DNA from: Winogradskyella sp. MH6
GTDB lineage: Bacteria; Bacteroidota; Bacteroidia; Flavobacteriales; Flavobacteriaceae
NCBI RefSeq assembly: GCF_022810765.1
Contig: NZ_CP094494.1
Coordinates: 372,001 to 436,000, forward strand
Direction of reading: 5' to 3'
Length of the DNA stretch: 64,000 nucleotides
Shown: positions 4,509 through 43,076 of the stretch, piece after piece
Position numbering within the stretch: the stretch's first letter is position 1
Layout of the letters: each line of letters starts with the position of its first letter
Notes under the pieces: model-generated
What the model saw: the letters and a program-made list of their open reading frames with translations, nothing else
What the model was told of the DNA's origin: nothing
Database searches by the model: none
Made by a program: the position numbers and the translations under genes

Positions 4509-4551
4509 TGACAAAAATCACCATTTATCTAAATCCAAAGGTCTAAATTTG
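4509..4551 (+). promoter_or_regulatory. CRP/FNR-type box plus -7 element upstream of fhs
   Basis: TGACAAAAATCA at 4509-4520 fits TGAY-N4-RTCA. A perfect Bacteroidota -7 element TAAATTTG lies at 4544-4551, its first base 29.5 bp from the box centre (4514.5). The predicted start is about 4556, 23 bp before the fhs ATG, placing the box at about -41.5. Same geometry as thirteen other sites in this window. Confidence 0.75.
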
Positions 4552-4578
4552 AATTTGTATTAATTCATATCAAAAAAA

Positions 4579-6246
4579 ATGACTGATCTTCAGATTGCCA
4601 AAAAAGTAAAACTAAAGCCCATAACCGAAATTGCCGAGAAGTTTGGTATTGATCCAAATAATATTGAAATGTACGGTAATGATAAAGCCAAGCTTCCTTT
4701 GTCTTGCATTAACAGAAATAAAGCCAAGAAAAGTAATCTTATACTGGTTTCTGCAATCTCACCTACTCCTGCCGGCGAAGGTAAAACAACTATTTCCATC
4801 GGGTTATCTGAAGCCCTCAACCAATTAAACAAAAAAACAACTGTTGTTTTAAGAGAACCTTCTTTGGGTCCTGTGTTTGGTATAAAAGGAGGAGCAACTG
4901 GTGGTGGTTATTCGCAAGTTTTACCTTTAGAAGATATTAACTTACACTTTACTGGTGATTTCTCAGCCATTGAAAAAGCACACAACTTATTAGCTGCAGT
5001 AATAGACAATAATATACAAAGCAAGACCAATTCTCTTGGTTTAGACCCAAGAACCATTACATGGAAACGTGTTGTGGACATGAATGACAGAGCGCTACGA
5101 CGTATTATTGTTGGTCTTGGAGGTACATCGTCTGGTATACCAAGAGAAACAGGATTTGACATTACAGCCGCTTCTGAGATTATGGCAATTTTATGTATTT
5201 CAAAAGATCTTAGTGACCTCAAGAAGCGACTAGGAAATATCTTTATTGGTTACACATTTTCGAAACAGCCTATATATGCTAGAGACTTAAAAGTCGCTGG
5301 AGCTATGGCCACACTTTTAAAACATGCTATAAAACCCAATTTAGTACAAACCATTGAAGGTAATCCAGCTATAATTCATGGCGGACCATTTGCTAATATT
5401 GCTCAAGGTACCAACTCCGTTATAGGCACTTTAATGGGAATGTCTTTTTCTGATTATACTGTAACTGAAGCTGGTTTTGGTTTTGACTTAGGTGCTGAGA
5501 AATTTTTTGATATTAAATGCCAAAGTGCCAACATATCTCCAAAAGCTGTCGTGTTAACCACAACAATACGTGCCCTTAAATATCATGGAGGTGCCGATTT
5601 AAAAACTTTAAATGAACCAAATGTTGAGGCACTGAGACAAGGCCTTCCTAATTTGGAAAAACATCTTGAAAATATTAAACAATTTGGAGTTACTCCTATT
5701 ATAGCTATCAACAAATTTAAATCTGATACCAAAGAAGAAATTCAACTCATAAAAGATTTAGCTAAGATTAAAAATATTAGAGTTGCCGTAGCTGATGTTT
5801 GGGCTAAAGGAGGTAAAGGAGCGTTAAAACTTGCCGAACATGTTATTGAAGTTGCAGAAGCCAGTAAAGCAAAATTTAAACCGCTTTACGATTGGAATAT
5901 GGATATTGAAACAAAAATTGAAACCATTGCCCAAAAAATATATGGCGCAGAACATGTAGATTATAACACCAATGCAAAACGGCAACTAACCAGAATAAAG
6001 GAGCTTGGCTTGGAAAACTTACCTGTTTGTATAGCCAAAACTCAAAAATCATTGTCAGATAATCCTAAATTACTGGGCAGACCAAAAGATTTTATAATTA
6101 CGGTACGTGAGATTGAGATTGCATCTGGAGCTGGTTTTTTAATTCCTATTACTGGCGAAATAATGCGTATGCCTGGTTTACCAACGCATCCAGCATCTGA
6201 AGGTATTGACATTAGCGACAGTGGTGAAATTAGTGGTTTGTTTTAA
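4579..6246 (+). CDS. fhs: Formate-tetrahydrofolate ligase
   Basis: ATP-dependent ligation of formate to tetrahydrofolate giving 10-formyl-THF, in cytoplasmic one-carbon metabolism. The 555 residues match the FTHFS family. The P-loop is PTPAGEGKTT (about residues 62-71), followed by the typical GGATGGGY segment and a C-terminal MPGLPTHPASEGID signature. ATG at 4579. It has its own promoter carrying the shared CRP/FNR-type box, so it appears to be co-regulated with stress and anaerobic genes. It ends 8 bp from the convergent methylase gene, with no clear terminator. Confidence 0.97.
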   Translation: MTDLQIAKKVKLKPITEIAEKFGIDPNNIEMYGNDKAKLPLSCINRNKAKKSNLILVSAISPTPAGEGKTTISIGLSEALNQLNKKTTVVLREPSLGPVFGIKGGATGGGYSQVLPLEDINLHFTGDFSAIEKAHNLLAAVIDNNIQSKTNSLGLDPRTITWKRVVDMNDRALRRIIVGLGGTSSGIPRETGFDITAASEIMAILCISKDLSDLKKRLGNIFIGYTFSKQPIYARDLKVAGAMATLLKHAIKPNLVQTIEGNPAIIHGGPFANIAQGTNSVIGTLMGMSFSDYTVTEAGFGFDLGAEKFFDIKCQSANISPKAVVLTTTIRALKYHGGADLKTLNEPNVEALRQGLPNLEKHLENIKQFGVTPIIAINKFKSDTKEEIQLIKDLAKIKNIRVAVADVWAKGGKGALKLAEHVIEVAEASKAKFKPLYDWNMDIETKIETIAQKIYGAEHVDYNTNAKRQLTRIKELGLENLPVCIAKTQKSLSDNPKLLGRPKDFIITVREIEIASGAGFLIPITGEIMRMPGLPTHPASEGIDISDSGEISGLF

Positions 6247-6254
6247 ATAAAAAC

Positions 6255-6713
6255 TTACGATCTAGGCTTATTAATTCCTCTGTCGTACATTACAATACTA
6301 CCTGCTACAGACACATTAAGGCTTAATTGTGATTTGAATTTCACCAAAAAATGACTCTTTTCTATGGCTTGATTAGAGAGTCCATGGTCTTCGGCTCCGA
6401 GAAGATAAACACATCGTCTTGGATGATGAAATGTTTCTAAATCTACCGCTTCATCTGTTAACTCTACACCTACTAAACGCGCACCTTTAGGTAAATTATT
6501 AAAAAATTCATCAAAAGTTTCATAATGAAAATAAGGCATCGATTTTACAGCATTATGTGTATCGCAGGCTTGTTTTGCATACCGATTACCAATGGTAAAA
6601 ATAAAACTAGCACCTAAGTTTTGGGCTGATCTCCATAGTACACCAAGATTCTCTGGCGTTTTACCATTTTGTATACCTATACCAAAAAATTCGTTTACAA
6701 AATTGTCTGTCAT
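6255..6713 (-). CDS. SpoU/TrmH-family RNA 2'-O-methyltransferase
   Basis: SPOUT-fold methylase acting on tRNA or rRNA ribose. The three SpoU motifs are visible: motif 1 (NPENLGxxxR-like: TPENLGVLWRSAQNLGA), motif 2 (LLGAEDHGLS) and motif 3 (LNVSVAGSIVMYD). I place the start at the ATG at 6713 (MTDNFVN) rather than the upstream ATG at 6740, whose extension is not conserved in character. About 152 residues, the short single-domain form. The exact RNA target cannot be told from sequence. Confidence 0.88.
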   Translation of the reverse strand: MTDNFVNEFFGIGIQNGKTPENLGVLWRSAQNLGASFIFTIGNRYAKQACDTHNAVKSMPYFHYETFDEFFNNLPKGARLVGVELTDEAVDLETFHHPRRCVYLLGAEDHGLSNQAIEKSHFLVKFKSQLSLNVSVAGSIVMYDRGINKPRS

Positions 6714-6813
6714 AGTTGCAAAAATAAGACATACTGACAAAATGTAAGTTCATATTGAAATGGCATTTTTTTTGATTTTTTGGAGGCAGATGTCTAATTT
6801 AAAATTGTAAAAA

Positions 6814-7669: not shown

Positions 7670-7712
7670 TGACAAATATCATGAGAAAATTTGAATCTTA
7701 GTTATAACTTTA
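7670..7712 (+). promoter_or_regulatory. CRP/FNR-type box plus -7 element upstream of usp/ldhA
   Basis: TGACAAATATCA at 7670-7681 and -7 element TAACTTTA at 7705-7712, with centre-to-element distance 29.5 bp. Predicted start about 7717; the following USP begins at 7742. This promoter position rules out translation from 7691. Confidence 0.75.
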
Positions 7713-7741
7713 GATGCAAAGAATTACAAAACCTGTTGATT

Positions 7742-8575
7742 ATGTTATCTGTCTTGTTGCCTACCGATTTTTCAGAGAATTCTAAAAATGCTATTACCTA
7801 CGCTTTAGAATTATATAAAAATGAAGACTGTAAATTTCACTTTTTGCACTGCTATCCTCCAGTCATCTTTTCTTATGAATATCAAATAGAGAAAGGACTT
7901 ATTGGAAAAGATATCCATAAAATTCTTCAGGAAGAATCTAAAGAGCGACTTTATGAGTTTGCGCTTTCTTTAATGCGAAAACATGGTATGGAACAAGAGT
8001 TCGAGGTTGAAGTCGTAAAAGGCTTTTTACCAGATCGTATTTCGAGAGCAGTGTCTGATAATAATATAGATCTCATTGTCATGGGAACAAAAGGAGAAAC
8101 AGACTCTGACAGAGTAATTTTTGGCAGCAATACCACACAAATTATAAACAAACGTTGCTGTCCTGTTATTGCTGTACCAGATGATTATAAGTTTGCTGGT
8201 TTAGAGAATATATTATTCCCTTCAGATTTAAATCTGTCGTTTAAACACAAGCATTTTCAACCAATCCTAAAAATATTAGAATTACATAAAAGCAATATTA
8301 AAGTTCTGCATATAACAATGCAAGAACTCACATCCTTACAAAAAATTCATAAAGAGTTTATAAAGGAAACATTTACGGATTACAAAACAACATACGATAT
8401 TTTAGAAGAGAAAGACATTGCAGATGTGGTCTATGATTATCAACAAGAGCATAAATCTGAATTACTTGTGATGATTAACAACAAACATTCCTTTTTTGAA
8501 AACCTGTTCTTTAAACCAACAATATCAAAAATTGCAATGCATTTACAGACACCTTTTATGGTGATTCCTGCGTAA
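7742..8575 (+). CDS. Universal stress protein, tandem UspA domains
   Basis: About 277 residues from the ATG at 7742 (MLSVLLPTDFSENS). The frame extends to 7691 but that start lies upstream of the predicted transcription start. The N-terminal UspA domain carries the nucleotide-binding motif G-x2-G-x9-G-S/T (MGTKGETDSDRVIFGSN); the second domain lacks it and ends with the HSFFENLFFK segment shared with paralogues at 18632 and 19499. Probably co-transcribed with the D-lactate dehydrogenase 35 bp downstream, which suggests a role in the low-oxygen or energy-starved state. Confidence 0.93.
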   Translation: MLSVLLPTDFSENSKNAITYALELYKNEDCKFHFLHCYPPVIFSYEYQIEKGLIGKDIHKILQEESKERLYEFALSLMRKHGMEQEFEVEVVKGFLPDRISRAVSDNNIDLIVMGTKGETDSDRVIFGSNTTQIINKRCCPVIAVPDDYKFAGLENILFPSDLNLSFKHKHFQPILKILELHKSNIKVLHITMQELTSLQKIHKEFIKETFTDYKTTYDILEEKDIADVVYDYQQEHKSELLVMINNKHSFFENLFFKPTISKIAMHLQTPFMVIPA

Positions 8576-8610: not shown

Positions 8611-9603
8611 ATGAAAGTTCTTGTTTACAGCACCAGAGATTTTGAGAAAGCGTATTTAGAGCAAGCTAATAACAATAAGCACAGTCTTACATTTACCAAA
8701 GAAACCTTATCATCATCAACAGCTATTAAAGCTGTAGGTTACGATGCAGTTTCTATTTTTTCTGCAGATGAAGCTTGCTTTTTAACCATAGAAAAACTTC
8801 ACGGTTTTGGTGTTAAGTATATTAGCTTACGATCTGTGGGATACGATAATGTAAACATTAAGGCTGCTAAACGAGAAGGTATTAAAGTTGCCAACGTACC
8901 AGCATATTCTCCCAATGCTATTGCAGAACATGCAGTAACACTTCTTTTGGCTTTAAACCGAAAACTTATCGAAGCCAATAATAACATTAAACGTTTCAAT
9001 TTTGATTTAAATCACCTCATCGGTTTCGACCTTAATGGTAAAACCGTAGGTATTATTGGAACTGGAAAGATTGGCTCTGTTATGGCTAAAATCATGCATG
9101 GATTTGGATGTAAATTATTAGGTAATGACCTTGAAGAAGACCACCTATTGACAGAACTCTACGGCTTACAATATGTTTCTCTAGAGAATTTATGTGAGCA
9201 GTCAGATATCATCTCCCTTCATGTACCACTAAATAGCGACACACACCACATGGTTAACGAAGACTTATTTGATATAATGAAGGAAAATGTATATCTCATC
9301 AACACAGCACGTGGTGCTATAGTTAATACAGATGACCTAATTATAGCTTTAGACCACAAAAAAATTGCAGCTTATGGCATGGATGTTTATGAGAATGAAA
9401 AAGGCATTTATTTTAAAGATTTGTCTCATGACATTCCTGATGACGATGCTCTAATAAAGCTTATAGCCATGCCAAATGTATTGGTTACTGGCCACCAAGC
9501 ATTTTTAACCAATGAAGCTCTAACCAATATTGCTGAGACTACCATTTACAATCTAGATTGTTGGGAAAACAACATAGTAAACGACAATGAATTAACAGGA
9601 TAG
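8611..9603 (+). CDS. ldhA: D-lactate dehydrogenase / 2-hydroxyacid dehydrogenase
   Basis: 330 residues, the usual size of NAD-dependent D-2-hydroxyacid dehydrogenases. The Rossmann motif GTGKIG is at about 150, the substrate-binding SVGYDNVNI segment at about 76, the catalytic Arg within INTARGA, then a Glu (YENEKG) and a catalytic His (GHQAFLT). The long C-terminal insert before GHQAF is typical of fermentative LdhA. Reduces pyruvate to D-lactate in the cytoplasm. It sits directly after a box-controlled USP gene, which fits oxygen-limited redox balancing. Another 2-hydroxyacid specificity is possible. Confidence 0.88.
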   Translation: MKVLVYSTRDFEKAYLEQANNNKHSLTFTKETLSSSTAIKAVGYDAVSIFSADEACFLTIEKLHGFGVKYISLRSVGYDNVNIKAAKREGIKVANVPAYSPNAIAEHAVTLLLALNRKLIEANNNIKRFNFDLNHLIGFDLNGKTVGIIGTGKIGSVMAKIMHGFGCKLLGNDLEEDHLLTELYGLQYVSLENLCEQSDIISLHVPLNSDTHHMVNEDLFDIMKENVYLINTARGAIVNTDDLIIALDHKKIAAYGMDVYENEKGIYFKDLSHDIPDDDALIKLIAMPNVLVTGHQAFLTNEALTNIAETTIYNLDCWENNIVNDNELTG

Positions 9604-12340: not shown

Positions 12341-12709
12341 CTAATTGGCAATAACCTCTTTATTTCTACTTTCAGCAAATTTTTCAATTAAATCTGGTAC
12401 TTTTTCAAATGCAGCTGCAAGACCATGAGCTTTACCAGCTTCAATAAAAGAGATTTCATTTTCTCGAGTAACTAAAAATCCTAAAGGTTCAATTCCTACA
12501 CCTGCTCCTGCACCTATACCTTCACCTTTTTTACCCTTAGTTTCAGAACCTTCTCCTCCACCTGAGCCAAATCCCATGCCTACTTTTATTACAGGTACAC
12601 ACTTAAATTCTCCCAGCTGAAACTCTTTACCAATTACAGTATCGGCATTAGCTTCTGTTTTCATAAAATCTGTCACTTGTCCTAATAATTCTTCTAAATG
12701 TAGTTCCAT
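12341..12709 (-). CDS. GerW (YtfJ)-family protein
   Basis: 122 residues. Contains the family's glycine-rich centre (VGMGFGSGGGEG...GIGAGAGVGIEPLGFLV) and an N-terminal helix with a repeated Leu pattern. In Bacillus and relatives YtfJ/GerW is a spore germination protein; here the organism is not a spore former, so the role must be different. The gene is 13 bp downstream of a DUF2953-like gene, the same pairing seen in Firmicutes (ytfI-ytfJ, from memory). The pair is headed by a promoter with the shared CRP/FNR-type box. Confidence 0.8.
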   Translation of the reverse strand: MELHLEELLGQVTDFMKTEANADTVIGKEFQLGEFKCVPVIKVGMGFGSGGGEGSETKGKKGEGIGAGAGVGIEPLGFLVTRENEISFIEAGKAHGLAAAFEKVPDLIEKFAESRNKEVIAN

Positions 12710-12721: not shown

Positions 12722-13222
12722 TTAAATGTTGAAAAATGATTTTATAATGCGTATTGGTCTATTCTCAACAGCCAATACTAATGTGTTTTGACCTTTATAG
12801 TTAACATGGAATCCTCCAAATTGATAGTTTAAAAAAGAAAATACTGGGTACAATTTTGAGTTTGCAATACAATCTCCTGTATCTATGTTCATGTAAAACT
12901 GTGTTACTTTAAAGGATTTTATAATTCTTATTACAGTTCTAAAGCTTAATTTCTTTGTTTTTTTATCAACCTTTATTGCTTTTGATGTTTCAGATTTCTT
13001 TTCTTTTTTGGCTTTTAGCGGATGGATGTAAAATTTTAAAAAGAACAACTTTAATCTTATTATAAAAATCTCTTTATCATCTTTAATTACATCTGCCCTT
13101 GCAAGGCCTTTTAACTGAATATAATATTGCTCATTATTTGTATCTATAACCAAAATCATTGGCATTAACAATAGGTACATAATCAACGATAAAAACAACA
13201 ATATGATAATAGTTAACAACAT
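12722..13222 (-). CDS. DUF2953-like membrane protein
   Basis: 166 residues. One N-terminal membrane helix (about 2-22), then a basic segment (KAKKEKKSE) and a C-terminal domain whose pattern FYMNIDTGDCIANSKLYPVFSFLN resembles DUF2953 (YtfI). It precedes the GerW-like gene in one operon. Function unknown; assigned by pattern and neighbour, so moderate certainty. Confidence 0.65.
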   Translation of the reverse strand: MLLTIIILLFLSLIMYLLLMPMILVIDTNNEQYYIQLKGLARADVIKDDKEIFIIRLKLFFLKFYIHPLKAKKEKKSETSKAIKVDKKTKKLSFRTVIRIIKSFKVTQFYMNIDTGDCIANSKLYPVFSFLNYQFGGFHVNYKGQNTLVLAVENRPIRIIKSFFNI

Positions 13223-13237: not shown

Positions 13238-13280
13238 CAAAGGAAAGCAAACTATAAATATAGCACAATGATATTCATCA
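13238..13280 (-). promoter_or_regulatory. CRP/FNR-type box plus -7 element upstream of DUF2953-gerW
   Basis: TGATATTCATCA at 13269-13280; reading leftward, the -7 element TTCCTTTG occupies 13245 down to 13238, with 29.5 bp spacing from the box centre. Predicted start about 13233, 11 bp before the DUF2953 ATG. Confidence 0.65.
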
Positions 13281-13357: not shown

Positions 13358-13732
13358 CTATTCTTGTAGCTTCTTAAACTCAAGACTCAACTTTACCATA
13401 AAGTTTAATTCAGATTTATTGATTTTAGCAAAAGCATAGGCAATGTCATTCCCAGTCTTAAGAATGAGCTTTTGTAATTCCTCTGTAAATAATTTAGGAT
13501 TTCGATGTAGAAATTCAATAAACCTAGAAAAGCTGTTTTCTGCTGAAGCATTGTCTTTTTGTAATGTATTGAACTGATTTTTTATGACATCTTGTTCAAG
13601 TTCCGTAAGATGAAGCCATCGCTTTTTTAGGCTTTCAGACAACTTTACATATTCTTCAAAAGACAAGTTATTATCTGCCTTAGAAATAGCATAAAACACA
13701 TATCCTAAATGTATTAAAAAGTCCCTATTCAT
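13358..13732 (-). CDS. Hypothetical helical protein, TerB-like
   Basis: About 124 residues from the ATG at 13732 (MNRDFLIHLGYVFYAISKADNNLSFEE). The frame is open to 13804, but that extension passes through the predicted -7 element. The N-terminal pattern (hydrophobic helix, then ADNNLSxEE acidic turn) resembles the TerB-like helical fold. Divergent from the LOV kinase gene and sharing its regulatory region, so possibly an accessory of that system. Function not known. Confidence 0.6.
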   Translation of the reverse strand: MNRDFLIHLGYVFYAISKADNNLSFEEYVKLSESLKKRWLHLTELEQDVIKNQFNTLQKDNASAENSFSRFIEFLHRNPKLFTEELQKLILKTGNDIAYAFAKINKSELNFMVKLSLEFKKLQE

Positions 13733-13754
13733 TTTGATAAAAATTACCGCATAC

Positions 13755-13797
13755 AAAAGATATTTAAATCCTAAGAAACAAAGAATGATATTGATCA
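13755..13797 (-). promoter_or_regulatory. CRP/FNR-type box plus -7 element, leftward (TerB-like gene)
   Basis: TGATATTGATCA at 13786-13797 serves a leftward -7 element TATCTTTT (13762 to 13755) at 29.5 bp. It overlaps by six bases the box used for the rightward kinase promoter. Confidence 0.6.
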
Positions 13798-13834
13798 TTA
13801 TCATAAAATAATCACTATTTATTGCTTACCTTTA
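13792..13834 (+). promoter_or_regulatory. CRP/FNR-type box plus -7 element upstream of the LOV kinase
   Basis: TGATCATTATCA at 13792-13803 and -7 element TACCTTTA at 13827-13834, with 29.5 bp spacing. Predicted start about 13839, 22 bp before the kinase ATG at 13861. Points to autoregulation if the adjacent regulator binds here. Confidence 0.7.
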
Positions 13835-15747: not shown

Positions 15748-16789
15748 GATTTTACTCATAGAAGATGATACTGTTTTAAGAGAAAACACTGCTGAACTTT
15801 TAGAACTTTCAAACTTTGAAGTCATTACAGCACCAAATGGTGAGCTTGGCTTAAAAGCCATAAACATTAATACACCAGATATTATAGTTTGTGATATTAT
15901 GATGCCAAAACTTGATGGTTATGGCGTTTTAAACGAAGTAACCAAAAACAGTAAAACAAAGCATATTCCTTTTATTTTCTTATCTGCAAAAACCGAACAT
16001 CAAGACGTTAGAAAAGGTATGAATTTGGGAGCAGACGATTACATCACCAAACCTTTTACTGAAGACGAATTAATAAGTGCCATAAAAAGCAGACTGGCCA
16101 AAGCCAGTATCTTGAAGGATAAAGGTCAAGACAATGTTCAAAATTACTCTGAAAAAGACGAATTAATCAACCTTAACGATTTAAAAAATTTCTTTGACGA
16201 TTACGGTAATGAATTTACATATAATAAAGGCGATGTCATTTACAGAGAAGGTGACCACTCAAATTTTATATACCTCATTACAAAAGGTGCTGTAAAGTGC
16301 CACAAACTAGACAGCAAAGGCAAAGAATTAGCCACAAGCCTTTACAAAGAAGACGATTTGTTTGGTTACACCTCTTTTACCCATAATTTACCGCATAAAG
16401 AAACAGCTACAGCTATAAAAAAAACAAAATTGGTGGGTCTATCAATACTTCAATTATCAGAAATCATAAAGAACAACAACAAACTAGCCGTTGCCCTAAT
16501 TGATCATCTAACAGACGATTTGTCTCACATTAAAGACCAGCTTTTGGAAATGGCATATAGTTCGGTTAATAAAAAAACGGCTAGTACTATTCTTCAATTT
16601 GCAGAAAAAATAAATCGCAGACCTAACGACCCAATCAAAATATCTAGAAATGACTTGGCTAGTGTTGCTGGTATAGCCACAGAAACCTTTATTCGTACGT
16701 TAACTAATTTTAAAGAACAAGGATTAATTAAATCTGAAGGAAGAAACATCGTTGTTTTAGATGTTGAAGGACTTAAACAAATTAAATAA
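15740..16789 (+). CDS. Response regulator with cNMP-binding and Crp-type HTH domains
   Basis: 349 residues. Receiver domain (1-125) with acidic pair Asp9/Asp10, phospho-acceptor Asp52 and a Lys in ITKPF; then a cyclic-nucleotide-binding beta barrel (about 145-260); then an HTH_Crp domain (about 285-345). The recognition helix reads GIATETFIRTLTNF: the Glu and Arg four residues apart match those that CRP (RETVGR) and FNR (ETISR) use to contact TGA. No cysteine cluster for an Fe-S centre, so control is by phosphorylation, ligand or both. Partner of the LOV kinase by 8-bp overlap. Best candidate to bind the TGAY-N4-RTCA boxes of this window; that is inference. Confidence 0.93.
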   Translation: MTKILLIEDDTVLRENTAELLELSNFEVITAPNGELGLKAININTPDIIVCDIMMPKLDGYGVLNEVTKNSKTKHIPFIFLSAKTEHQDVRKGMNLGADDYITKPFTEDELISAIKSRLAKASILKDKGQDNVQNYSEKDELINLNDLKNFFDDYGNEFTYNKGDVIYREGDHSNFIYLITKGAVKCHKLDSKGKELATSLYKEDDLFGYTSFTHNLPHKETATAIKKTKLVGLSILQLSEIIKNNNKLAVALIDHLTDDLSHIKDQLLEMAYSSVNKKTASTILQFAEKINRRPNDPIKISRNDLASVAGIATETFIRTLTNFKEQGLIKSEGRNIVVLDVEGLKQIK

Positions 16790-16805: not shown

Positions 16806-16848
16806 TGATTCTTGTCATTTTAAAATCCGTTTTTAGAACCTACATTTA
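16806..16848 (+). promoter_or_regulatory. CRP/FNR-type box plus -7 element upstream of usp (16870)
   Basis: TGATTCTTGTCA at 16806-16817 and TACATTTA at 16841-16848, 29.5 bp apart by the same measure. Predicted start about 16853, 17 bp before the ATG. Confidence 0.75.
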
Positions 16849-18162: not shown

Positions 18163-18167
18163 ATATC

Positions 18168-18319: not shown

Positions 18320-18323
18320 TAAT

Positions 18324-21246: not shown

Positions 21247-21293
21247 ATTAATAAACGATAGACTCAAAAAACGACAACTTAAAACATACAATC

Positions 21294-23059: not shown

Positions 23060-23061
23060 TC

Positions 23062-35131: not shown

Positions 35132-35563
35132 TCAAAGCGGTAGTATGGACTTTCCACTTGCTATGTGTTTCCTTAAATCTTCAAGAGTCGTATGTTCTAA
35201 CCTTTGTTTAATCTTATGTTTTTCTTCATAGACCAAATGATGTAACGAACATGGATTATCACTATTACATTTCTCAAGACTCAATAAGCAAGAGTTTAAC
35301 CGCTCTTCACCATCAACCGCTTCTATAATTTGCATGACATTAGTTTGAAACTGATTTTTTGTTAAATAGAACCCTCCTTTGGGACCTCGAGTTGAAGATA
35401 TAATATCTTTTTTGGAAAGAGCTTGTAAAATTTTGGCAATATATGCTGATGGTACATTGATTGGTTCCGCTATATCTTTTATGACTAACTTATTTACCTC
35501 ACTAGAATTAACCGCAAGAAAAAGACAAGCTTTTATAGCATACTTAGCTGTATTAGAAAACAT
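35132..35563 (-). CDS. Rrf2-family regulator, Fe-S type
   Basis: 143 residues. Winged-helix N-terminus (KYAIKACLFLAVNS) and three cysteines in the spacing C-x6-C-x5-C (SCLLSLEKCNSDNPC), as in Fe-S containing Rrf2 proteins such as NsrR/IscR. Divergent from the nos operon, the usual position of its regulator. One of three such paralogues in this window. Signal (NO, oxygen or Fe-S status) is inferred from family. Confidence 0.9.
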   Translation of the reverse strand: MFSNTAKYAIKACLFLAVNSSEVNKLVIKDIAEPINVPSAYIAKILQALSKKDIISSTRGPKGGFYLTKNQFQTNVMQIIEAVDGEERLNSCLLSLEKCNSDNPCSLHHLVYEEKHKIKQRLEHTTLEDLRKHIASGKSILPL

Positions 35564-35614: not shown

Positions 35615-35657
35615 TGATTTTTATCATAAAATATCGATTCTATCCTTGCTAAATTTG
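35615..35657 (+). promoter_or_regulatory. CRP/FNR-type box plus -7 element of the nos operon
   Basis: TGATTTTTATCA at 35615-35626, within the longer palindrome TATGATTTTTATCATA, and a perfect -7 element TAAATTTG at 35650-35657; 29.5-bp spacing. Predicted start about 35662, 17 bp before the cytochrome gene. Confidence 0.78.
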
Positions 35658-35678: not shown

Positions 35679-36158
35679 ATGAAAACAATATCAAAAATTT
35701 GCATTTTAGCTTTAACGCTATTTCTTTTCAATTGTGGAGGTGACACTAAAAAAAAGGAAGATCCTTATGCTAAAAAAACACCTGAAAAAACAGAAAAAAA
35801 AGAACCAGCATCAAAAAGAGTTGAATTAACTAATAAAGGTGTTGGGCCAGTTTCTAAAGTAGATTTAGCACTTGTAGTGGACCATGAAATGGCTGCCAAC
35901 GGAAAAATAATATATGAAAAAATGTGTACAGCATGTCATAAACCAGACAAAAAACATATTGGACCTGCCCCAAAAGGTATATTATCACGACGCTCACCTG
36001 AATGGATAATGAACATGATTCTAGCACCTGAAAAAATGGTAAAAGAAGATCCTTTAGCAAAGGACTTATTAATTGAGTTTAATGGATCACCTATGGCTAA
36101 TCAAAATTTAACCAAAGATGAAGCTAGAGCTGTCCTTGAATATTTTAGAACACTCTAA
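35679..36158 (+). CDS. c-type cytochrome lipoprotein of the nos cluster
   Basis: 159 residues. Lipid anchor Cys19 (LFNC), Lys/Glu-rich linker (about 24-48), then a single-heme cytochrome c domain with heme motif C83-x2-C86-H87 and an axial Met near GSPMANQ. Probable periplasmic electron donor to NosZ, as in other clade II nos clusters. First gene of the operon, directly after the boxed promoter. Confidence 0.9.
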   Translation: MKTISKICILALTLFLFNCGGDTKKKEDPYAKKTPEKTEKKEPASKRVELTNKGVGPVSKVDLALVVDHEMAANGKIIYEKMCTACHKPDKKHIGPAPKGILSRRSPEWIMNMILAPEKMVKEDPLAKDLLIEFNGSPMANQNLTKDEARAVLEYFRTL

Positions 36159-36186
36159 ACTTCTCGTTTAATTAAATGTTATAACC

Positions 36187-36768
36187 ATGAAAACACTAAT
36201 CAAATCACTATTACTCTTTGCTTTTTTGGGATGCTTTATAGCATGTAATAATTCAGCAAAGTCATCTGAAGACAATGCCCAAACCACAACCAATGACACA
36301 TCTAACGAAAAAACCGGACAGGCCTTTATAAAAGATGAAGGAGGTACACCAAATGCACTACAATTGGCAATGCAATCAGAAGACCATACAACATTGGTTA
36401 CCGCTGTACAAGCTGCTGGCGTAGAAAATGCACTAGTCAATGTTGGGCCTTTAACGGTTTTTGCACCTAATAATACAGCATTTTCTAAAATTGACGAAGC
36501 TACCTTAAACGATCTTCTAAAACCGGAAAACAAAGGCAAATTAGCCTTAATACTAACAAACCATGTAGCTCCAAGTAATTTTCCTGTTGAGATGCTGAAA
36601 AAGAACGCTGAAAAAAATCGAAAACTTTACATGGCCTCTGGAGAATATGTAGAGGTTACACAGCAAGATGGTGACTTATACGTTGGCGGCACCAAAATTA
36701 TTGCAACAGTCAACGTGAGTAACGGTTGGGTACATATTGTTGAAGACGTTATTCTTCCAAAAAACTAA
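36187..36768 (+). CDS. Fasciclin-domain lipoprotein
   Basis: 193 residues with a lipoprotein signal (FLGCFIAC). One fasciclin domain (about 60-190) with the H1 and H2 motifs (TVFAPNNTAFSKI and NGWVHIVEDVI). Fasciclin proteins are often found between cytochrome and nosZ in Bacteroidota. Exact job unknown; cell-surface or periplasmic. Confidence 0.88.
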   Translation: MKTLIKSLLLFAFLGCFIACNNSAKSSEDNAQTTTNDTSNEKTGQAFIKDEGGTPNALQLAMQSEDHTTLVTAVQAAGVENALVNVGPLTVFAPNNTAFSKIDEATLNDLLKPENKGKLALILTNHVAPSNFPVEMLKKNAEKNRKLYMASGEYVEVTQQDGDLYVGGTKIIATVNVSNGWVHIVEDVILPKN

Positions 36769-36795
36769 AACTATTAACTAAATAAATCATTAAAA

Positions 36796-38748
36796 ATGAA
36801 CAAACTAAGCAAATACGTATTAGCTATTGCTGTCTCGGCTTTTTTAGTCAATTGTGGCAATAACAACAATACAAAAAACTCAAGTGCTATGACTTCTAGC
36901 AAGGCTGAGAAAGTTTATGTAGCACCTGGCGAACACGATGAGTATTACGGCTTTATGTCTGGTGGCTATAGTGGAAACATTACAGTATATGGCATACCAA
37001 GTGGACGAATGCTAAAAGAAATTCCTGTATTTTCTCAATTTCCTACTTCTGGATATGGATACTCTGAAGAAACAAAACCTATGTTAAATACTTCGTTTGG
37101 ATTTGTTCCATGGGGAGATTCTCACCATCCAGACATTTCTCAAACCAATGGAGAGTTAGATGGCAGATGGATTTTTATCAATGAAAACAATACTCCTCGT
37201 ATTGCAAGAGTGAGTTTAGCAACATTTGAAACTGAAGAAATCATTGAGATACCAAATAGCGCAGGTAACCACGCTTCTTCATTTATTACGGAAAACACAG
37301 AATATATAGTTGCTGGTACTCGATTTGCTGTACCAAACCCACAAAAAGATATGCCAATTAATGAGATGAAAGGGAAATTCAAAGGCCCATTATCTTTTGT
37401 AAGCATTGCTGATAACGGTAGGCTTAACTTAGATTTTCAATTAAACATGCCTGGCTTTAACTATGACCTCTCCCACCCTGGACGTGGAAAATCTCATGGT
37501 TGGTTCTTCTTTACAAGTTATAACACAGAAGAAGCAAACACTCTATTAGAGGTAAATGCATCACAAAATGATAAGGATTTCATTGCTGCAATTAACTGGA
37601 AAAAAATTGTAGAATATGTAAAAAACGGTGGAGGAACCAAAGTTGATGGAAAATATGCACATAACATATATGACGAAAAGACACATACTGCAACATCTAC
37701 TATAAAAGAAGGTGTTATTTCGGTTGACCCAAGAGATGTAGAAGGTTCTGTTTTTTATATCCCAATACCTAAGTCTCCTCACGGTTGTGATGTTGACCCA
37801 ACAGGACAGTATATTGTAGGTAGTGGTAAATTGTCTACAGATTTGAGCGTTTACGATTTTGATAAAATCCAAACCGCAATTGCCAATAAAGATTACGAAG
37901 GTGATGCTTATGGAATACCTATTTTAAGCTATGAAAATACTCTAGCAGGTGTTGTACAACAGCCAGGACTAGGGCCTTTACACACAGAGTTTGACGGCAA
38001 AGGAAATGCTTATACGACTTTCTTTATTTCATCTGAAGTGGTTAAGTGGAAATTAGGTACTTGGGAAATTTTAGACAGACAACCAACATTCTATTCTGTA
38101 GGCCATCTAATGATACCTGGAGGAAACTCTCGTAAGCCTTTTGGTAAATATTTAATTGCCATGAATAAGATTACAAAAGACCGTTACTTACCAACTGGTC
38201 CTGAGTTAGAGCACTCTGCTCAACTGTACGACATATCTGGTGACAAAATGGAACTCTTATTAGACTTCCCTACTCATGGAGAACCTCATTACGCTGCTGG
38301 TATTAGAGCTGACATCATAAAGGAAAAAAGTAAAAAGTACTATGAATTGGCTGAAAACGAACATCCTTACGTAGCTAAAAGTGAAGCAGATGCAAAAGTT
38401 ACTAGAAATGGTAACGAAGTTCATATCAACATGACTATGATACGCAGCCACTTTGCACCTGACAATATTGAAGGTATAAAAGTTGGAGATAAAGTGTACT
38501 TCCATCTAACAAATCTAGAACAAGATTTTGATGTACCGCATGGTTTCTCAATGATTGGCGCTAATACTTCTGAAATTCTAGTAATGCCAGGTCAAACCAA
38601 AACAATTGTTTGGGAGCCTAAACGCGAAGGTGTATGGCCTTTCTATTGTACAGATTTCTGTTCTGCATTACACCAAGAGATGCAAGGATATATAAGAGTA
38701 TCTGGGAAAAATTCTAACACTCCTCTAAAATACACTTTAGATGAATAA
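36796..38748 (+). CDS. nosZ: Nitrous oxide reductase, clade II
   Basis: Reduces N2O to N2 in the periplasm, the last step of denitrification. 650 residues. The leader has a lipobox (FLVNC, Cys20) and no twin-arginine motif, so export is by Sec and the enzyme is probably membrane-anchored; this is the clade II type. Seven-bladed propeller with CuZ histidines (SHHPD, GNHASS, HGCDVD, GPLHTEFD), then the cupredoxin CuA site Cys618-x3-Cys622-x3-His626-x2-Met629. Presence without norB or nirS/K in the window suggests use of external N2O. Confidence 0.97.
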   Translation: MNKLSKYVLAIAVSAFLVNCGNNNNTKNSSAMTSSKAEKVYVAPGEHDEYYGFMSGGYSGNITVYGIPSGRMLKEIPVFSQFPTSGYGYSEETKPMLNTSFGFVPWGDSHHPDISQTNGELDGRWIFINENNTPRIARVSLATFETEEIIEIPNSAGNHASSFITENTEYIVAGTRFAVPNPQKDMPINEMKGKFKGPLSFVSIADNGRLNLDFQLNMPGFNYDLSHPGRGKSHGWFFFTSYNTEEANTLLEVNASQNDKDFIAAINWKKIVEYVKNGGGTKVDGKYAHNIYDEKTHTATSTIKEGVISVDPRDVEGSVFYIPIPKSPHGCDVDPTGQYIVGSGKLSTDLSVYDFDKIQTAIANKDYEGDAYGIPILSYENTLAGVVQQPGLGPLHTEFDGKGNAYTTFFISSEVVKWKLGTWEILDRQPTFYSVGHLMIPGGNSRKPFGKYLIAMNKITKDRYLPTGPELEHSAQLYDISGDKMELLLDFPTHGEPHYAAGIRADIIKEKSKKYYELAENEHPYVAKSEADAKVTRNGNEVHINMTMIRSHFAPDNIEGIKVGDKVYFHLTNLEQDFDVPHGFSMIGANTSEILVMPGQTKTIVWEPKREGVWPFYCTDFCSALHQEMQGYIRVSGKNSNTPLKYTLDE

Positions 38749-38791
38749 AATGAGTTAATAGTTTTAGTGTTAAATATCAATTAACTCAGAC

Positions 38792-38825
38792 ATGGGCGAG
38801 TGTATTGCTCGCCCATAATTTTTAA
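38792..38825 (+). terminator. Hairpin after nosZ
   Basis: ATGGGCGAG (38792-38800), 7-nt loop, CTCGCCCAT (38808-38816), then AATTTTTAAAA. Nine-bp GC-rich stem. Likely reduces read-through into the accessory nos genes, making nosZ the most abundant message. Confidence 0.8.
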
Positions 38826-38837
38826 AATAAATTAAAC

Positions 38838-39455
38838 ATGAAATCCGCTAGTATATTAATGATCATAGGTTCCGCATTGCTTTTAGGTTTATTTATATTT
38901 CCTTTGTGGAGTATATCTCTAGAAGCACCTCAATATCCAAGTGGTATCGGTATGAATATTCACTTAGATGGGTTAGTAGGAAAAGAAAAACACGATTTAC
39001 AGAACATTGATGGACTAAACCATTATATAGGTATGAGCAAGTTGCCTAAACCAAATGAAATGTGGGAGTTTTCAGTATTTCCAATGGTTGTTGGAGGTAT
39101 GGCCTTATTTGGTATCTTACTTGGTTTTTTAGGATTATTTAAAGGTATTTCACCAAAGTGGTTTTTGGGATGGCTCATTTTAATGGTTATATTAGGTGTG
39201 TTAGGAATGTACGATTTTAATGCTTGGATGGTAGATTACGGTACCAATTTAGATCCTAAAGCTATTATGAAAATGACAGACGCAAATGGTAATCCTTTAA
39301 GTTATAAACCACCATTATTTGGAACAAGACATATCTTAAATTTTGTGGCTCATTCTTATCCGCATACAGGTGCCTACATGATGGGATTTGGAATGTTCTT
39401 AACCTTTATAGCCTATTGGTTAGGTAATAAAAAAATGAAAACTGTTAAAGCATGA
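38838..39455 (+). CDS. Membrane protein of clade II nos clusters
   Basis: 205 residues with about four membrane helices (about 5-25, 75-95, 105-125, 170-195). A soluble loop (about 26-70) contains a HYIGM motif that might bind metal or heme. ATG at 38838. Stop overlaps nosL by 4 bp. Such a protein between nosZ and nosL is typical of Bacteroidota clusters; function not established. Confidence 0.8.
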   Translation: MKSASILMIIGSALLLGLFIFPLWSISLEAPQYPSGIGMNIHLDGLVGKEKHDLQNIDGLNHYIGMSKLPKPNEMWEFSVFPMVVGGMALFGILLGFLGLFKGISPKWFLGWLILMVILGVLGMYDFNAWMVDYGTNLDPKAIMKMTDANGNPLSYKPPLFGTRHILNFVAHSYPHTGAYMMGFGMFLTFIAYWLGNKKMKTVKA

Positions 39456-39880
39456 AACGTCTAAGTCTATTAATATTTTTATGCAGCTTTTTTAGTTGTA
39501 GTAAAACACCTCAAACTATAAATTACGGAACAGATATGTGCCATTTCTGCCAAATGACCATTGTTACAAAAACACACGCGGCACAAATGGTTACCACTAA
39601 AGGCAAACAATATAAGTTTGATGCTATAGAATGTATGATTCGCTTTTTAGAAGACAAACAAGATATTATGGCTTCTGGCAACTTATTCATTGCCAATTAC
39701 AATCAACCTGGCACAATGATAGATGCAAAAACCGCTACATATGCTGTTTGTGAAGAAATTACTAGTCCTATGGGAGCAAATCTCTCAGGTTTCAAAAATA
39801 CCGAAACAGCGAAAAAAATCATCAATGGCAGACCAGCCCAATACTATGATTGGGAAGGTATTTTTAACAAAATTAATTGA
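39452..39880 (+). CDS. nosL: NosL copper chaperone lipoprotein
   Basis: 142 residues. Lipobox CSFFSC near residue 16. Copper-binding C-x2-C-x-M motif (DMCHFCQM, about 29-36) and the conserved KYKFDAIECM segment. Delivers Cu(I) for NosZ CuZ assembly in the periplasm. Four-bp overlap with the preceding gene. Confidence 0.94.
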   Translation: MKRLSLLIFLCSFFSCSKTPQTINYGTDMCHFCQMTIVTKTHAAQMVTTKGKQYKFDAIECMIRFLEDKQDIMASGNLFIANYNQPGTMIDAKTATYAVCEEITSPMGANLSGFKNTETAKKIINGRPAQYYDWEGIFNKIN

Positions 39881-39884
39881 TTGG

Positions 39885-41132
39885 ATGAACCCTAAAACAA
39901 CTATTAGCTTTTTATTATTTCTTTTCTCAACCTGTTTTGTATTTGCTAAAACAATAACCATTTGCAAAACAGGTTGTGATTTTAATTCCATTAAAACTGC
40001 TGTAGATAGTTCTAAAAGTGGAGATAGTCTTTTTATTAAAACTGGTCTGTACAAGGAATCCAATATTGTCATCTACAAAAAATCACTTTATATAACAGGA
40101 GAAAAAGGCACTGTAATAGACACTCAGAATAAAGGCTACGGATTTTCTGTAGAGGCTACCGATATTATCATCAAAAACTTAACAATAAAAAATATTGAAG
40201 TTAGTTATACAAAAGAATATGCAGCAATTTTGCTATTTAAATCATATGACTTTGTTATTGAAAATATTACAGTAGAAAGAGCCTTTTTTGGCCTTTTAGT
40301 TCAAAAATCTAAGGATGGTATTATAAAAAACAATACTATATCTGGTGAAGGCAAAGCTGAAGCAGATTCTGGTAACGCCATACATCTTTGGCATTGTGAA
40401 AATGTAAAAGTTCTAAACAATGATGTGCGCAGAATGAGAGATGGCATATATCTAGAGTTTGGGAACAGCAGCTATATTGCCAACAACTACTCTACCCAAA
40501 ATATGCGTTACGGTCTTCATTTTATGTTTTCTAATGACAATGCTTATGAAAATAACACTTTTGAAGCCAATGGTGCTGGTGTTGCCGTAATGTTTTCTAA
40601 GCGAATAAAAATGTTCAACAATTTGTTTAAGAAAAATTGGGGAACAGCATCTTATGGAATTTTACTTAAGGAGATTAACGATGCAGAACTACAGAACAAT
40701 ATCTTTGAAGACAACACTATTGGTGTTAATGCAGATGGCACCAATAGAATAACATTTACCGAAAACACATTTAAAAATAATGGATATGCTATAAAGGTAC
40801 ATGGAGCTTGTTATGATAACATTTATTCAAAAAATAACTTTTTGCACAACTCTTTTGACTTATCTTATTCAGGCAAACTAAACAGTAATAAGTTTGAAAA
40901 TAATTACTGGAGTAATTACACAGGTTACGATTTAGATAAAGATGGTATTGGAGACGTTCCCTACAGACCAGTAAAATTGTTTTCATATTTGGTAAATCGC
41001 ACTCCAGAAAGTATTGTACTACTTAGAAGCTTATTTATTGATATAATTAACTTTTCTGAAAAAGTATCACCAGTTTTTACACCAGAAAATCTCATTGATA
41101 ACAAACCACTAATGCATAAGGTAACATGGTAG
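39885..41132 (+). CDS. nosD: NosD copper-site maturation protein
   Basis: About 415 residues from the ATG at 39885 (MNPKTTISFLLF), 4 bp after nosL ends; the longer frame from 39723 only reads nosL in another frame. Signal peptide, then right-handed beta-helix repeats (NNTISGEG, NNYSTQNMRYG, NNLFKKNWGTA). Works with NosF and NosY in copper-sulfur cluster assembly on NosZ. Overlaps nosF by 7 bp. Confidence 0.94.
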   Translation: MNPKTTISFLLFLFSTCFVFAKTITICKTGCDFNSIKTAVDSSKSGDSLFIKTGLYKESNIVIYKKSLYITGEKGTVIDTQNKGYGFSVEATDIIIKNLTIKNIEVSYTKEYAAILLFKSYDFVIENITVERAFFGLLVQKSKDGIIKNNTISGEGKAEADSGNAIHLWHCENVKVLNNDVRRMRDGIYLEFGNSSYIANNYSTQNMRYGLHFMFSNDNAYENNTFEANGAGVAVMFSKRIKMFNNLFKKNWGTASYGILLKEINDAELQNNIFEDNTIGVNADGTNRITFTENTFKNNGYAIKVHGACYDNIYSKNNFLHNSFDLSYSGKLNSNKFENNYWSNYTGYDLDKDGIGDVPYRPVKLFSYLVNRTPESIVLLRSLFIDIINFSEKVSPVFTPENLIDNKPLMHKVTW

Positions 41133-41833
41133 AAATAGTAGATCTACATAAAAAATTCGGTAAAAATAACGTACTAAACGGTGTAGACCTTAACATAAAT
41201 GAAGGAGGTATATTTGCTGTTTTAGGTCCTAATGGCTCTGGAAAAACCACCATTATAAAAAGCATTTTAGGGATGGTAATACCAGACAATGGCACAATTA
41301 AAGTTTTTAACACAAACATTAAAAAGAACTCTAATTATAGAAGCAAAATAGATTATCTCCCTCAGATAGCTAACTTTCCCAGCAACCTCAAAGTCATAGA
41401 GCTCATTAAAATGATAAAAGACCTTAGGGGACAAACTAACAACGATCAAAAACTTATAGAAACCTTTAAGCTTCAACCTTTTTTAAACAAAAAATTGGGA
41501 ACGCTTTCTGGCGGTACAAAGCAAAAGGTTAATTTGGTGCTCACCTTTATGTTCGATAGTCCAATTGTAATTTTAGACGAGCCAACGACAGGCTTAGATC
41601 CTATTTCTTTAATACGTCTAAAAGAGTTAATTACAGTAGAAAAGAAAAAAGGAAAGGCCATTTTAATTACATCTCACATAATGAGTTTTGTTGAAGAAGT
41701 AGCTGATCAGATTGTATTTATTCTAGAAGGAAAAATATACTTTAAAGGCAGCATAGAAGAGCTTAAAACCAAAACAGAACAGAACGATTTTGAACATGCC
41801 ATTGCTAACATTTTAAACAAAAACCATGCTTAA
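41126..41833 (+). CDS. nosF: NosF ABC transporter ATPase
   Basis: 235 residues. Walker A GPNGSGKTT, signature LSGGTKQK, Walker B ILDEPTTGLDP, H-loop ITSH. Energises the NosDFY complex for NosZ maturation. Overlaps both neighbours by 7-8 bp. Confidence 0.95.
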   Translation: MVEIVDLHKKFGKNNVLNGVDLNINEGGIFAVLGPNGSGKTTIIKSILGMVIPDNGTIKVFNTNIKKNSNYRSKIDYLPQIANFPSNLKVIELIKMIKDLRGQTNNDQKLIETFKLQPFLNKKLGTLSGGTKQKVNLVLTFMFDSPIVILDEPTTGLDPISLIRLKELITVEKKKGKAILITSHIMSFVEEVADQIVFILEGKIYFKGSIEELKTKTEQNDFEHAIANILNKNHA

Positions 41834-42608
41834 GATTTTAAAATACAGTTTTTTCGATTTAATGCGTAGCAGTTGGAGTTATGTTTACTTTGCCTTTTAT
41901 CTGCTGTTGGGTATTGTACTGCTTTTTCTAAATAGTGATTTATCTAAGGCTGTTATTACACTAATGAATGTTATAATAGTTTTGGTCCCTCTAATAGGCA
42001 CCATTTTCGGCGTAATGTATTACTACAATTCAAAAGAGTTTACAGAGCTTCTACTCGCTCAGCCTTTAAAACGCTCGTCCATTTTTTTAGGACAGTATTT
42101 TGGTGTTGCACTTTCTTTATCAATGAGTTTAATCTTAGGTCTTGGTATTCCATTTATTGTTTATGGTTTATTTAAATCTAATGCCATTTGGGATTTTTCA
42201 TTGCTACTAATAGTAGGCGTGTTTCTAACATTTATATTTAGTGCTTTAGCCTTTAATATTGCGCTATCTAACGAAAATAAAATTAAAGGATTTGGTTACG
42301 CCATTCTTATGTGGCTATTTCTTGCCATTATTTACGATGGATTATTTTTAATGTCATTAATAATTTTTGAAGATTACCCTCTTGATAAAGTCTCTTTAAT
42401 TGGCACAATGCTCAACCCAATAGACCTGTCCAGAACACTTATTCTTTTAAAGCTAGACATCTCTGCATTATTAGGATATACAGGTGCTGTTTTTAAACAG
42501 TTTTTTGGCACTAGCTTTGGGTTGATTATTTCTATCTTTGCCTTAATTATTTGGGTAGCTCTTCCAGTTTTACGAATTATCCATAAATCAAAGAAAAAAG
42601 ACTTTTAG
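41826..42608 (+). CDS. nosY: NosY membrane permease
   Basis: 260 residues with six membrane helices, ABC-2 type; KEFTELLLAQPLKRSSIFLGQY is the family's cytoplasmic segment. Membrane partner of NosF. Confidence 0.93.
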   Translation: MLKILKYSFFDLMRSSWSYVYFAFYLLLGIVLLFLNSDLSKAVITLMNVIIVLVPLIGTIFGVMYYYNSKEFTELLLAQPLKRSSIFLGQYFGVALSLSMSLILGLGIPFIVYGLFKSNAIWDFSLLLIVGVFLTFIFSALAFNIALSNENKIKGFGYAILMWLFLAIIYDGLFLMSLIIFEDYPLDKVSLIGTMLNPIDLSRTLILLKLDISALLGYTGAVFKQFFGTSFGLIISIFALIIWVALPVLRIIHKSKKKDF

Positions 42609-42609
42609 T

Positions 42610-43026
42610 ATGAAGCTCAAAACAGTTTATGGTATTGCACTTCTATTTATATTGGCTTTGTTTGGATGTAAAAACAAAAAAACAGAGGCTAACATCGTTT
42701 TAGAAGGCCTAGCTCTAAACAATGGTAAACAGTGGGTAGCAAACCAGGAAACGCACATCGGAATGAAACGCATCGATTCCATCTTAAAAACAGAAACCTC
42801 AATTGATACAAAAACATTAGGCAACGTCCTTTCAAAAGAGACTAGTTACATCATTAAAAGTTGCAACATGAAAGGTGAAGCACACGATCAGCTTCACATT
42901 GTTCTTGTACCTATACTTGAAGAAATATCAGATTTAAAAGACGAAGAAAATGATACTGCTAAAGCACAAAAAATAAAACGATTAAAACTTCTTGTTGCCA
43001 AGTATTTTGAGTTTTTTAAAGTTTAA
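42610..43026 (+). CDS. Hypothetical lipoprotein of the nos operon
   Basis: 138 residues. Lipid Cys about residue 20 (LALFGC). Otherwise helical with MKGEAHDQLHIVLVPILEE, a Met/His segment that could bind copper. Starts 1 bp after nosY, so part of the operon. Function not known. Confidence 0.7.
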   Translation: MKLKTVYGIALLFILALFGCKNKKTEANIVLEGLALNNGKQWVANQETHIGMKRIDSILKTETSIDTKTLGNVLSKETSYIIKSCNMKGEAHDQLHIVLVPILEEISDLKDEENDTAKAQKIKRLKLLVAKYFEFFKV

Positions 43027-43033
43027 TTTCTCA

Positions 43034-43076
43034 TGACATTTATCATCTTATTTAAGACATTTTAGTCCGAAATTTG
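43034..43076 (+). promoter_or_regulatory. CRP/FNR-type box plus -7 element of the copper operon
   Basis: TGACATTTATCA at 43034-43045, within ATGACATTTATCAT, and -7 element GAAATTTG at 43069-43076; 29.5-bp spacing. Predicted start about 43081, exactly at the GTG of the next gene, so a leaderless message is possible. Confidence 0.65.

Follow-up and report, generated by a model that had tools for sequence, protein, structure and literature searches.

In this report we analyze a 64,000-nucleotide stretch of DNA from Winogradskyella sp. MH6 (contig NZ_CP094494.1, positions 372,001-436,000; hereafter the window), in which a series of promoters carries the box TGAYN4RTCA at one exact distance from a -7 element. 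The same motif and spacing are enriched in the rest of the genome and across the Flavobacteriaceae, and their frequency is linked to the presence of either of two regulator genes. One of these encodes a receiver-Crp fusion (REC-Crp) and lies in the window next to a sensor histidine kinase; the other encodes a plain Fnr-like protein. A Crp/Fnr-type regulon with fixed geometry is strongly supported. It is probable that the kinase and REC-Crp form a pathway of the FixL-FixJ-FixK type in two proteins, with promoters that are shared with Fnr.

Spacing of the Box and the -7 Element

The sequence TGAYN4RTCA was found 17 times in the window, relative to 4.7 expected copies (the largest of 100 shuffles had 10) and to the approximately 3.9 boxes that the genome-wide density alone would predict. 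An earlier note on this DNA had listed 14 sites, consisting of 13 exact boxes and a one-mismatch box at 18277, and had claimed that each is located 29.5 bp (box centre to first base) from a -7 element of the TAnnTTTG type, a constancy said to be hard to obtain by chance. The constancy was confirmed at 14 of 14 sites, where exactly 23 bp, equivalent to 29.5 bp in the measure above, separate the end of the box from an 8-mer that departs from TAnnTTTG at no more than one base. The label itself fits loosely; the element is perfect at only two sites (4544 and 35650), and the remainder end in TTTA (seven), end in TTTT (two) or carry another single mismatch (three).

When the exact boxes of the window were counted over gaps of 0-60 bp, the gap of 23 bp occurred 13 times and the mean of the remaining gaps was 0.52. 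The same spacing count in 300 simulated windows had a mean of 0.13 and a maximum of 1. The remaining four exact boxes (9003, 14415, 31462, and 59861) are found within open reading frames (ORFs) and do not have the 23-bp geometry. A single fixed distance between box and core promoter is what is expected for class II activation by Crp/Fnr proteins, and the class II position of -41.5 would fit if transcription begins about 5 nt past the -7 element.

The 3.5-Mb genome shows barely any enrichment of the bare box (214 copies vs 197 of the reversed pattern). Pairs of a box and a perfect TAnnTTTG at gaps of 9-38 bp number 22, with 10 at gap 23, two at gap 22 and one at gap 21; the reversed-pattern control gave eight pairs summed over all of these gaps. 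Just two of the ten perfect gap-23 pairs fall inside the window. With one mismatch allowed, 47 sites were found at gap 23 vs 10 for the reversed control. The box is intact in 38 of the 47, and seven of the nine sites with a damaged box are within ORFs. Only 13 of the 38 intact-box sites belong to the 39-kb cluster of the window, and the 25 found elsewhere in the genome exclude a regulon confined to this stretch, as the earlier note had framed it. Of these 25 sites, 20 are positioned between called ORFs, four are intra-ORF and one is in an ORF of uncertain start; at least 16 have an ORF start no more than approximately 115 bp downstream.

The outside targets, identified by eye and by neighbourhood, include ccoNO (cbb3 oxidase), a ccoI-type ATPase, and hemN (which has PF04055) with a universal stress protein (USP) gene. 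Others are triosephosphate isomerase, PPDK, a CitMHS-family transporter followed by PEPCK, a CBS protein, a ribosome-hibernation (S30AE) protein, and a pyridine-nucleotide oxidoreductase resembling sulfide:quinone reductase. A malate-dehydrogenase-like gene, also recognized by eye, has a box/-7 pair at gap 22. Judged by the genes that they precede, the boxes appear to constitute one genome-wide low-oxygen regulon of survival, respiration and N2O genes.

In a family sample of 120 Flavobacteriaceae genomes, one per genus, the pattern box-N23-TAnnTTTR was found 1,858 times in 113 genomes, and the reversed control 65 times. Gaps of 24-33 bp, the range to which the off-spacing counts apply, gave 1,092 occurrences combined, or 109 per spacing, such that gap 23 is enriched approximately 17-fold over their mean. 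Chance spacing was rejected on the counts from the window, the genome and the family. That the boxes are mostly accidents of AT-rich DNA, or sites of a repressor or architectural protein, would agree with the near equality of the bare box and its reversed pattern in this genome, but this explanation is highly improbable. It conflicts with the 17-fold preference for 23 bp, with the near-background frequency of this spacing in genomes that have neither regulator, and with its recurrence before orthologous ccoNO genes, and a repressor would need no single exact spacing.

A consensus of [AC]TGAY-N4-RTCAT was derived from 156 distinct sites in the fetched loci. The box is followed by T in 94% and by A in 0% of these sites and is preceded by T in 7%, and the place where a -33 element would lie is T-rich. 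The box for FNR of E. coli is TTGAT-N4-ATCAA. The flanks of the 156 sites do not fit this canonical Fnr palindrome, which was thus rejected, and they define a half-site of ATGAY, unlike the TTGAT of E. coli FNR. In the window, 13 of the 14 sites have T after the box and share the consensus of the remaining sites.

Two Regulators with One Helix Signature

REC-Crp (15740-16789, forward strand), which the earlier note had put forward as the regulator, is composed of a receiver domain with Asp52, a cNMP-binding fold, and an HTH_Crp_2 domain with the recognition helix ATETFIR. The genome encodes four HTH_Crp_2 proteins, and the recognition-helix signature is common to only two of them: REC-Crp (IATETFIR) and the Fnr-like protein at 2,414,543 (GTATESAIR), whose gene adjoins the cco genes and is surrounded by boxes. 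Both proteins match PF00027 and PF13545 above the cutoff, consistent with the cNMP-binding fold and Crp-type helix-turn-helix of the Crp/Fnr family. When 30 sequences of REC-Crp were compared with 30 of Fnr, all taken with no preselection on the letters of the helix, A-x-E-[ST]-x-I-R was invariant in both sets. The signature is given in this form because the Thr of the ATE string varies (25/30 in REC-Crp and 28/30 in Fnr).

The residues expected of a response-regulator phospho-acceptor site (Asp52, Ser/Thr82, and Lys104) are present in 30/30 REC-Crp sequences. In the Fnr-like protein, Cys4, 7, 29, 53, 59, and 106 are invariant (30/30), with a spacing unlike that of E. coli FNR, and some of the six could hold an Fe-S cluster; REC-Crp does not have the N-terminal Cys residues of the Fnr-like protein. 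REC-Crp was considered as a possible cAMP sensor; its pocket region was found to carry no signature of the CRP kind. None of the best 60 of 241 matches to solved chains covers both a receiver and a Crp domain.

Presence of the regulators was scored at cut-offs that were set after seeing the data (E up to 1e-50 for Fnr and up to 1e-40 for REC-Crp), with two ambiguous genomes of the 120 set aside. REC-Crp was found in 61 genera and the Fnr-like protein in 76. The site densities, in a comparison that ignores kinship among the genomes, were 7.06 per Mb for genomes with both regulators (n = 34), 5.15 for those with REC-Crp only (n = 27), 3.01 for those with Fnr only (n = 42), and 0.27 for those with neither (n = 15; 0-2 sites per genome, reversed control 0.14). 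A single regulator for all sites was rejected, because REC-Crp-only and Fnr-only genomes both keep them. At a stricter threshold (E up to 1e-55), a search of 296 Bacteroidota genomes from 139 genera detected REC-Crp in 43 genomes from 33 genera.

The ccoNO promoter was compared by taking the best-scoring pair at gaps of 21-25 bp within approximately 600 bp upstream. For the REC-Crp-only group, 21 of the 27 genomes were used, after exclusion of six whose plain Crp shows about 36% identity; an exact site precedes ccoNO in 19 of 20 (G069 has no ccoNO). For the Fnr-only group, nine of the 42 genomes were used, picked among those with many sites, and an exact site was found in seven of the nine; in G075 the box is damaged and the gap is 22. 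The Crp proteins were inventoried in eight of the 27 REC-Crp-only genomes, where 26 of 33 matches were read and the other seven fall below the family cut-off. In G050, G060, G086, and G098, no E-x-x-x-R helix of this kind besides that of REC-Crp was found among the matches read.

Several observations weigh against a shared set of sites. The genomes with neither regulator have a lower mean size (2.4 Mb), and few sites were found despite Fnr in G023 and G085 (two each) and in G042 and G107 (three). The ccoNO site is absent in the REC-Crp-only G037 and in the Fnr-only G091. Other Crp proteins with Fnr-like helices occur in the REC-Crp-only G024, G039, G048, and G114, and no box follows REC-Crp in G039.

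It was also considered that the plain Fnr-like protein alone activates these promoters and that the neighbouring REC-Crp regulates something else. The sites kept in Fnr-only genomes (n = 42, median 10), the boxes around the Fnr gene, and the six invariant Cys residues, with possible Fe-S ligands among them, are all in line with such an arrangement. It is nevertheless unlikely, given that the 27 genera in which REC-Crp occurs without a close Fnr are denser in sites than the Fnr-only genera, that 19 of the 20 REC-Crp-only genomes retain the ccoNO site, and that REC-Crp shares the helix signature and adjoins boxed genes across genera. A division of labour, in which REC-Crp alone governs the 39-kb cluster and Fnr is limited to respiratory genes elsewhere, is quite doubtful. 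REC-Crp and its kinase are indeed encoded inside the cluster with a box before and directly behind them, but the recognition signature is common to both regulators and the window sites have, by inspection rather than formal test, the same consensus as the rest.

The simplest reading would be that one code is read by both REC-Crp and the Fnr-like protein. Of the assignment made in the earlier note, what holds is that 15740-16789 encodes a member of the Crp family and that, among the Crp proteins read, this is the sole plausible reader of the boxes in some genomes; since the second, Fnr-like protein has the same helix signature, the 14 sites are not assignable to one regulator. With one or both regulators on the same kind of promoter in 103 of the 120 genera, the family represents a natural experiment in regulatory replacement.

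Sensor Kinase and Proposed Pathway

The sensor histidine kinase is encoded at 13861-15747 on the forward strand, the ATG at 13861 being taken as the true start. It has three PAS domains, of which the first is heme-PAS-like and the second is a LOV domain, followed by HisKA and HATPase domains. The second PAS domain contains NCRFLQG, with the NCRFLQ flavin-Cys motif of LOV domains in a PAS fold, and the best matches of residues 146-292 among solved structures come mostly from LOV proteins. The first PAS domain (PAS1) matched 16 solved sequences at E up to 1e-3, six from DosP/Ec DOS, seven from FixL, one from another heme PAS, and two from the LOV protein YtvA; the best were DosP and then FixL. 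When a model of PAS1 (mean pLDDT 79) was used in a fold search, DosP was first and FixL heme domains ranked high. The corresponding PAS domain of a short-form relative gave 14 matches at E up to 1e-6, all of them heme-PAS, with S. meliloti FixL as the best (1.6e-17).

We compared 132 kinases (that of the window, 120 found by search, and 11 from the loci), a sample biased toward long forms because it was gathered by relatedness to the PAS domain of the window kinase. The proximal His, whose role in heme PAS domains is taken, with that of the distal Arg, from PMC10765370, is kept in 119 of the 132 and is present in the window kinase, aligned with the His of DosP and FixL. Among the short kinases (up to 503 aa), 15 of 17 retain the distal Arg (Arg220 of BjFixL). 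The LOV kinases mostly retain the heme His, yet nearly all have lost the distal Arg that most short LOV-free relatives keep.

Oxygen sensing through heme is made less certain by three features. A LOV structure ranks second in the PAS1 fold search, so the fold alone is no proof of heme; 13 of the 132 kinases do not have the proximal His; and the distal Arg is kept in only five of the 115 long kinases, which mostly bear LOV domains, and is Ala in the window kinase, for which oxygen sensing is thus less sure than for the short relatives. From its sequence the short form appears to be a true FixL, and the LOV form may have another way of sensing oxygen or may respond mainly to light. It is possible that one orthologous kinase has shifted from oxygen to light sensing.

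In the proposed pathway, low oxygen, and perhaps light, would set the state of the kinase through a PAS1 domain of the FixL/DosP heme type, which would receive an oxygen or redox input, and the LOV domain would add a blue-light input in this lineage. The kinase would probably phosphorylate REC-Crp at Asp52. A REC-Crp dimer would then bind the half-sites of ATGAYN4RTCAT at about -41.5 and touch RNA polymerase, in class II fashion, at a Bacteroidota promoter with TAnnTTTR at -7. The plain Fnr-like protein, possibly bearing an Fe-S cluster, would act likewise on the same sites. The predicted output is the switching on of low-oxygen respiration (cbb3, nos, hemN), of central-carbon genes (ldhA-like, PPDK, PEPCK), and of a dormancy-like set (USPs, HSP20, the CBS protein, ribosome hibernation). 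We infer binding, activation, the heme and flavin, and phosphotransfer from these features, and the direction of control from the target genes.

We suggest, tentatively and with less than even confidence, that the pathway was collapsed to two proteins, that its output protein took over the Fnr promoters and replaces Fnr entirely in some genera with no change of box or spacing, and that the sensor of the LOV clade became in part an integrator of light and oxygen, with daylight maybe gating anaerobic survival and N2O respiration. Heterodimers of REC-Crp and Fnr would be possible where both exist. A working LOV domain would place an anaerobic programme under the influence of light.

Genes of the Window and Related Systems

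The first site of the window (4509-4551, forward strand; box TGACAAAAATCA, -7 element TAAATTTG at 4544-4551) is the predicted promoter of fhs (PF01268). The second (7670-7712, forward; TGACAAATATCA and TAACTTTA) is predicted to serve a USP gene (7691-8575) and an ldhA-like gene (8611-9603, 2-Hacid_dh); this USP ORF overlaps its promoter site, and its ATG is likely further inside. On the reverse strand, the site at 13238-13280 (-7 element TTCCTTTG) is the predicted promoter of 12722-13222, for whose product a Pfam search gave no match, and of a GerW/YtfJ-like gene (12341-12709, PF09579). The site at 13755-13797 (reverse; TGATCAATATCA and TATCTTTT) precedes a TerB-like gene (13358-13804) with a likely start inside the ORF and a TerB match that falls below the cutoff. 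The adjoining site at 13792-13834 (forward; TGATCATTATCA and TACCTTTA) is the predicted promoter of the kinase and REC-Crp genes, which are possibly autoregulated through this box.

Directly behind REC-Crp, the site at 16806-16848 (forward; TGATTCTTGTCA and TACATTTA) is the predicted promoter of a USP gene (16870-17718), and this placement of the box recurs in relatives. The order kinase, REC-Crp, box, USP was the recurrent one in 11 fetched neighbourhoods. Many of these continue with a small membrane protein, a noncoding stretch led by a box, and further USPs, and then with an ATP-cone/Mrr-like protein and a beta-CASP nuclease; some also have a box with hsp20. Among 20 further regions downstream of REC-Crp, 19 start with a box and a -7 element at gap 23 (at most one mismatch), the other being L182. 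The Fnr gene follows the REC-Crp and USP genes in four genera (G054, G062, G095, and G118; loci L094, L174, L177, and L192), which links the two regulators physically.

Between 18112 and 18640 there are two box-led, ORF-free stretches, each ending in a strong intrinsic terminator, and the two noncoding transcripts named in the earlier note are thus plausible. The site at 18120-18162 (forward; TGATATTTATCA and TATGTTTA) would direct a short noncoding RNA at 18166-18243 (forward, stem AAAAGCCAGAG). The site at 18277-18319 (forward; one-mismatch box TGATTTTCCTCA and TACATTTA) would direct a second at 18323-18525 (forward, stem GAAACAGGAAG); both starts are predicted from the promoter sites. Several relatives likewise have a box followed by a terminator ahead of their second USP group. 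The noncoding RNA ahead of this group shares the string GCTATTArT with four of the first five relatives examined, but the string was at that place in 0 of 20 further regions, and only the layout is therefore claimed for several relatives. No Rfam family reached its gathering score in the window, both noncoding RNAs included. The two stretches are possible low-oxygen small RNAs.

The site at 18566-18608 (forward; TGATAAATATCA and TAGCTTTA) is the predicted promoter of two USP genes (18632-19480 and 19499-20341), and that at 20349-20391 (forward; TGATTATAATCA and TAACTTTT) of a USP-like gene (20416-22148), 22208-23059, and a beta-CASP nuclease gene (23062-24435). The ATP-cone/Mrr-like protein and the nuclease (22208-24435) recur in the USP cluster of many of the relatives examined, which suggests that nucleic-acid processing is part of the low-oxygen programme. 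The site at 24458-24500 (forward; TGATCAAAATCA and TAAATTAG) is the predicted promoter of hsp20 (24541-24993), which is preceded by a box in L089, L090, and L095 as well. For the USP gene at 26209-27042 (reverse-strand site at 27047-27089; TGACTAAAATCA and TACATTTA), the start codon is 4 nt past the -7 element, so its mRNA is possibly leaderless.

The site at 35615-35657 (forward; TGATTTTTATCA and TAAATTTG) is the predicted promoter of the nos cluster (35679-42608). An Rrf2-family regulator gene (35132-35563) is divergent from this cluster and may add a second input (NO or Fe-S) at the nos promoter. The last site (43034-43076, forward; TGACATTTATCA and GAAATTTG) is predicted to serve 43081-43476, a lipoprotein-like gene (43579-44424) and a TonB receptor gene (44532-46535). 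The product of 43081-43476 had no Pfam match, and the label of a copper operon given to this group earlier was not confirmed. Pfam matches do sustain the targets fhs, ldhA-like, USPs, hsp20, and nos.

No paper on the pair formed by the kinase and REC-Crp, or on such a fixed-geometry regulon in the Flavobacteriaceae, was found among the open-licence papers searched, which is weak evidence of absence. A census of signalling proteins may list REC-Crp architectures. A close parallel is class II activation by FNR and FixK, with which the system shares the Crp/Fnr helix-turn-helix, the TGA...TCA dyad, the position of about -41.5 deduced from geometry, and the cbb3 oxidase, hemN and nos targets. It differs in the half-site, which is ATGAY rather than TTGAT, and in a promoter of the Bacteroidota -7 type. 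As in the rhizobial FixL-FixJ-FixK system, a kinase of the heme-PAS type adjoins a receiver protein, the DNA-binding domain is FixK-like, cbb3 and hemN are targets, and the PAS domain of a short relative matches FixL best. Here, however, the receiver and the Crp helix-turn-helix are combined in one protein in place of a separate FixJ (a receiver with a LuxR-type helix-turn-helix) and FixK, the helix-turn-helix of FixJ is missing, the window kinase has a LOV and an extra PAS domain and has lost the distal Arg, and the regulon includes stress genes.

The mycobacterial DosS/DosT-DosR system has heme-type kinases, USPs and an alpha-crystallin heat shock protein as targets, and a regulator of the NarL/FixJ type. 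The parallel with DosR that the earlier note had drawn is sound for function, given the heme-type kinase and the USP and HSP20 targets of the window and the CBS and ribosome-hibernation genes elsewhere in the genome. It does not extend to the regulator, which belongs to another family; DosR recognizes another motif, and N2O and cbb3 respiration are included here.

In Myxococcus xanthus, the NmpRSTU system for oxygen utilisation is described as having a heme-dependent kinase and a regulon with a USP, a CBS-domain protein, cbb3 oxidase, a P-type ATPase and hemN (PMC11841059). The type of kinase and these target classes are alike, whereas NmpRSTU has a globin sensor, several kinases and an NtrC-like regulator (PMC11841059), and the DNA-binding proteins are unrelated. 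For Herbaspirillum seropedicae, PMC5934665 reports two Fnr proteins that co-regulate one group of promoters, for which heterodimers were proposed. The pair described here differs from those proteins in that one regulator bears a receiver domain and is without the N-terminal Cys residues that its counterpart has.

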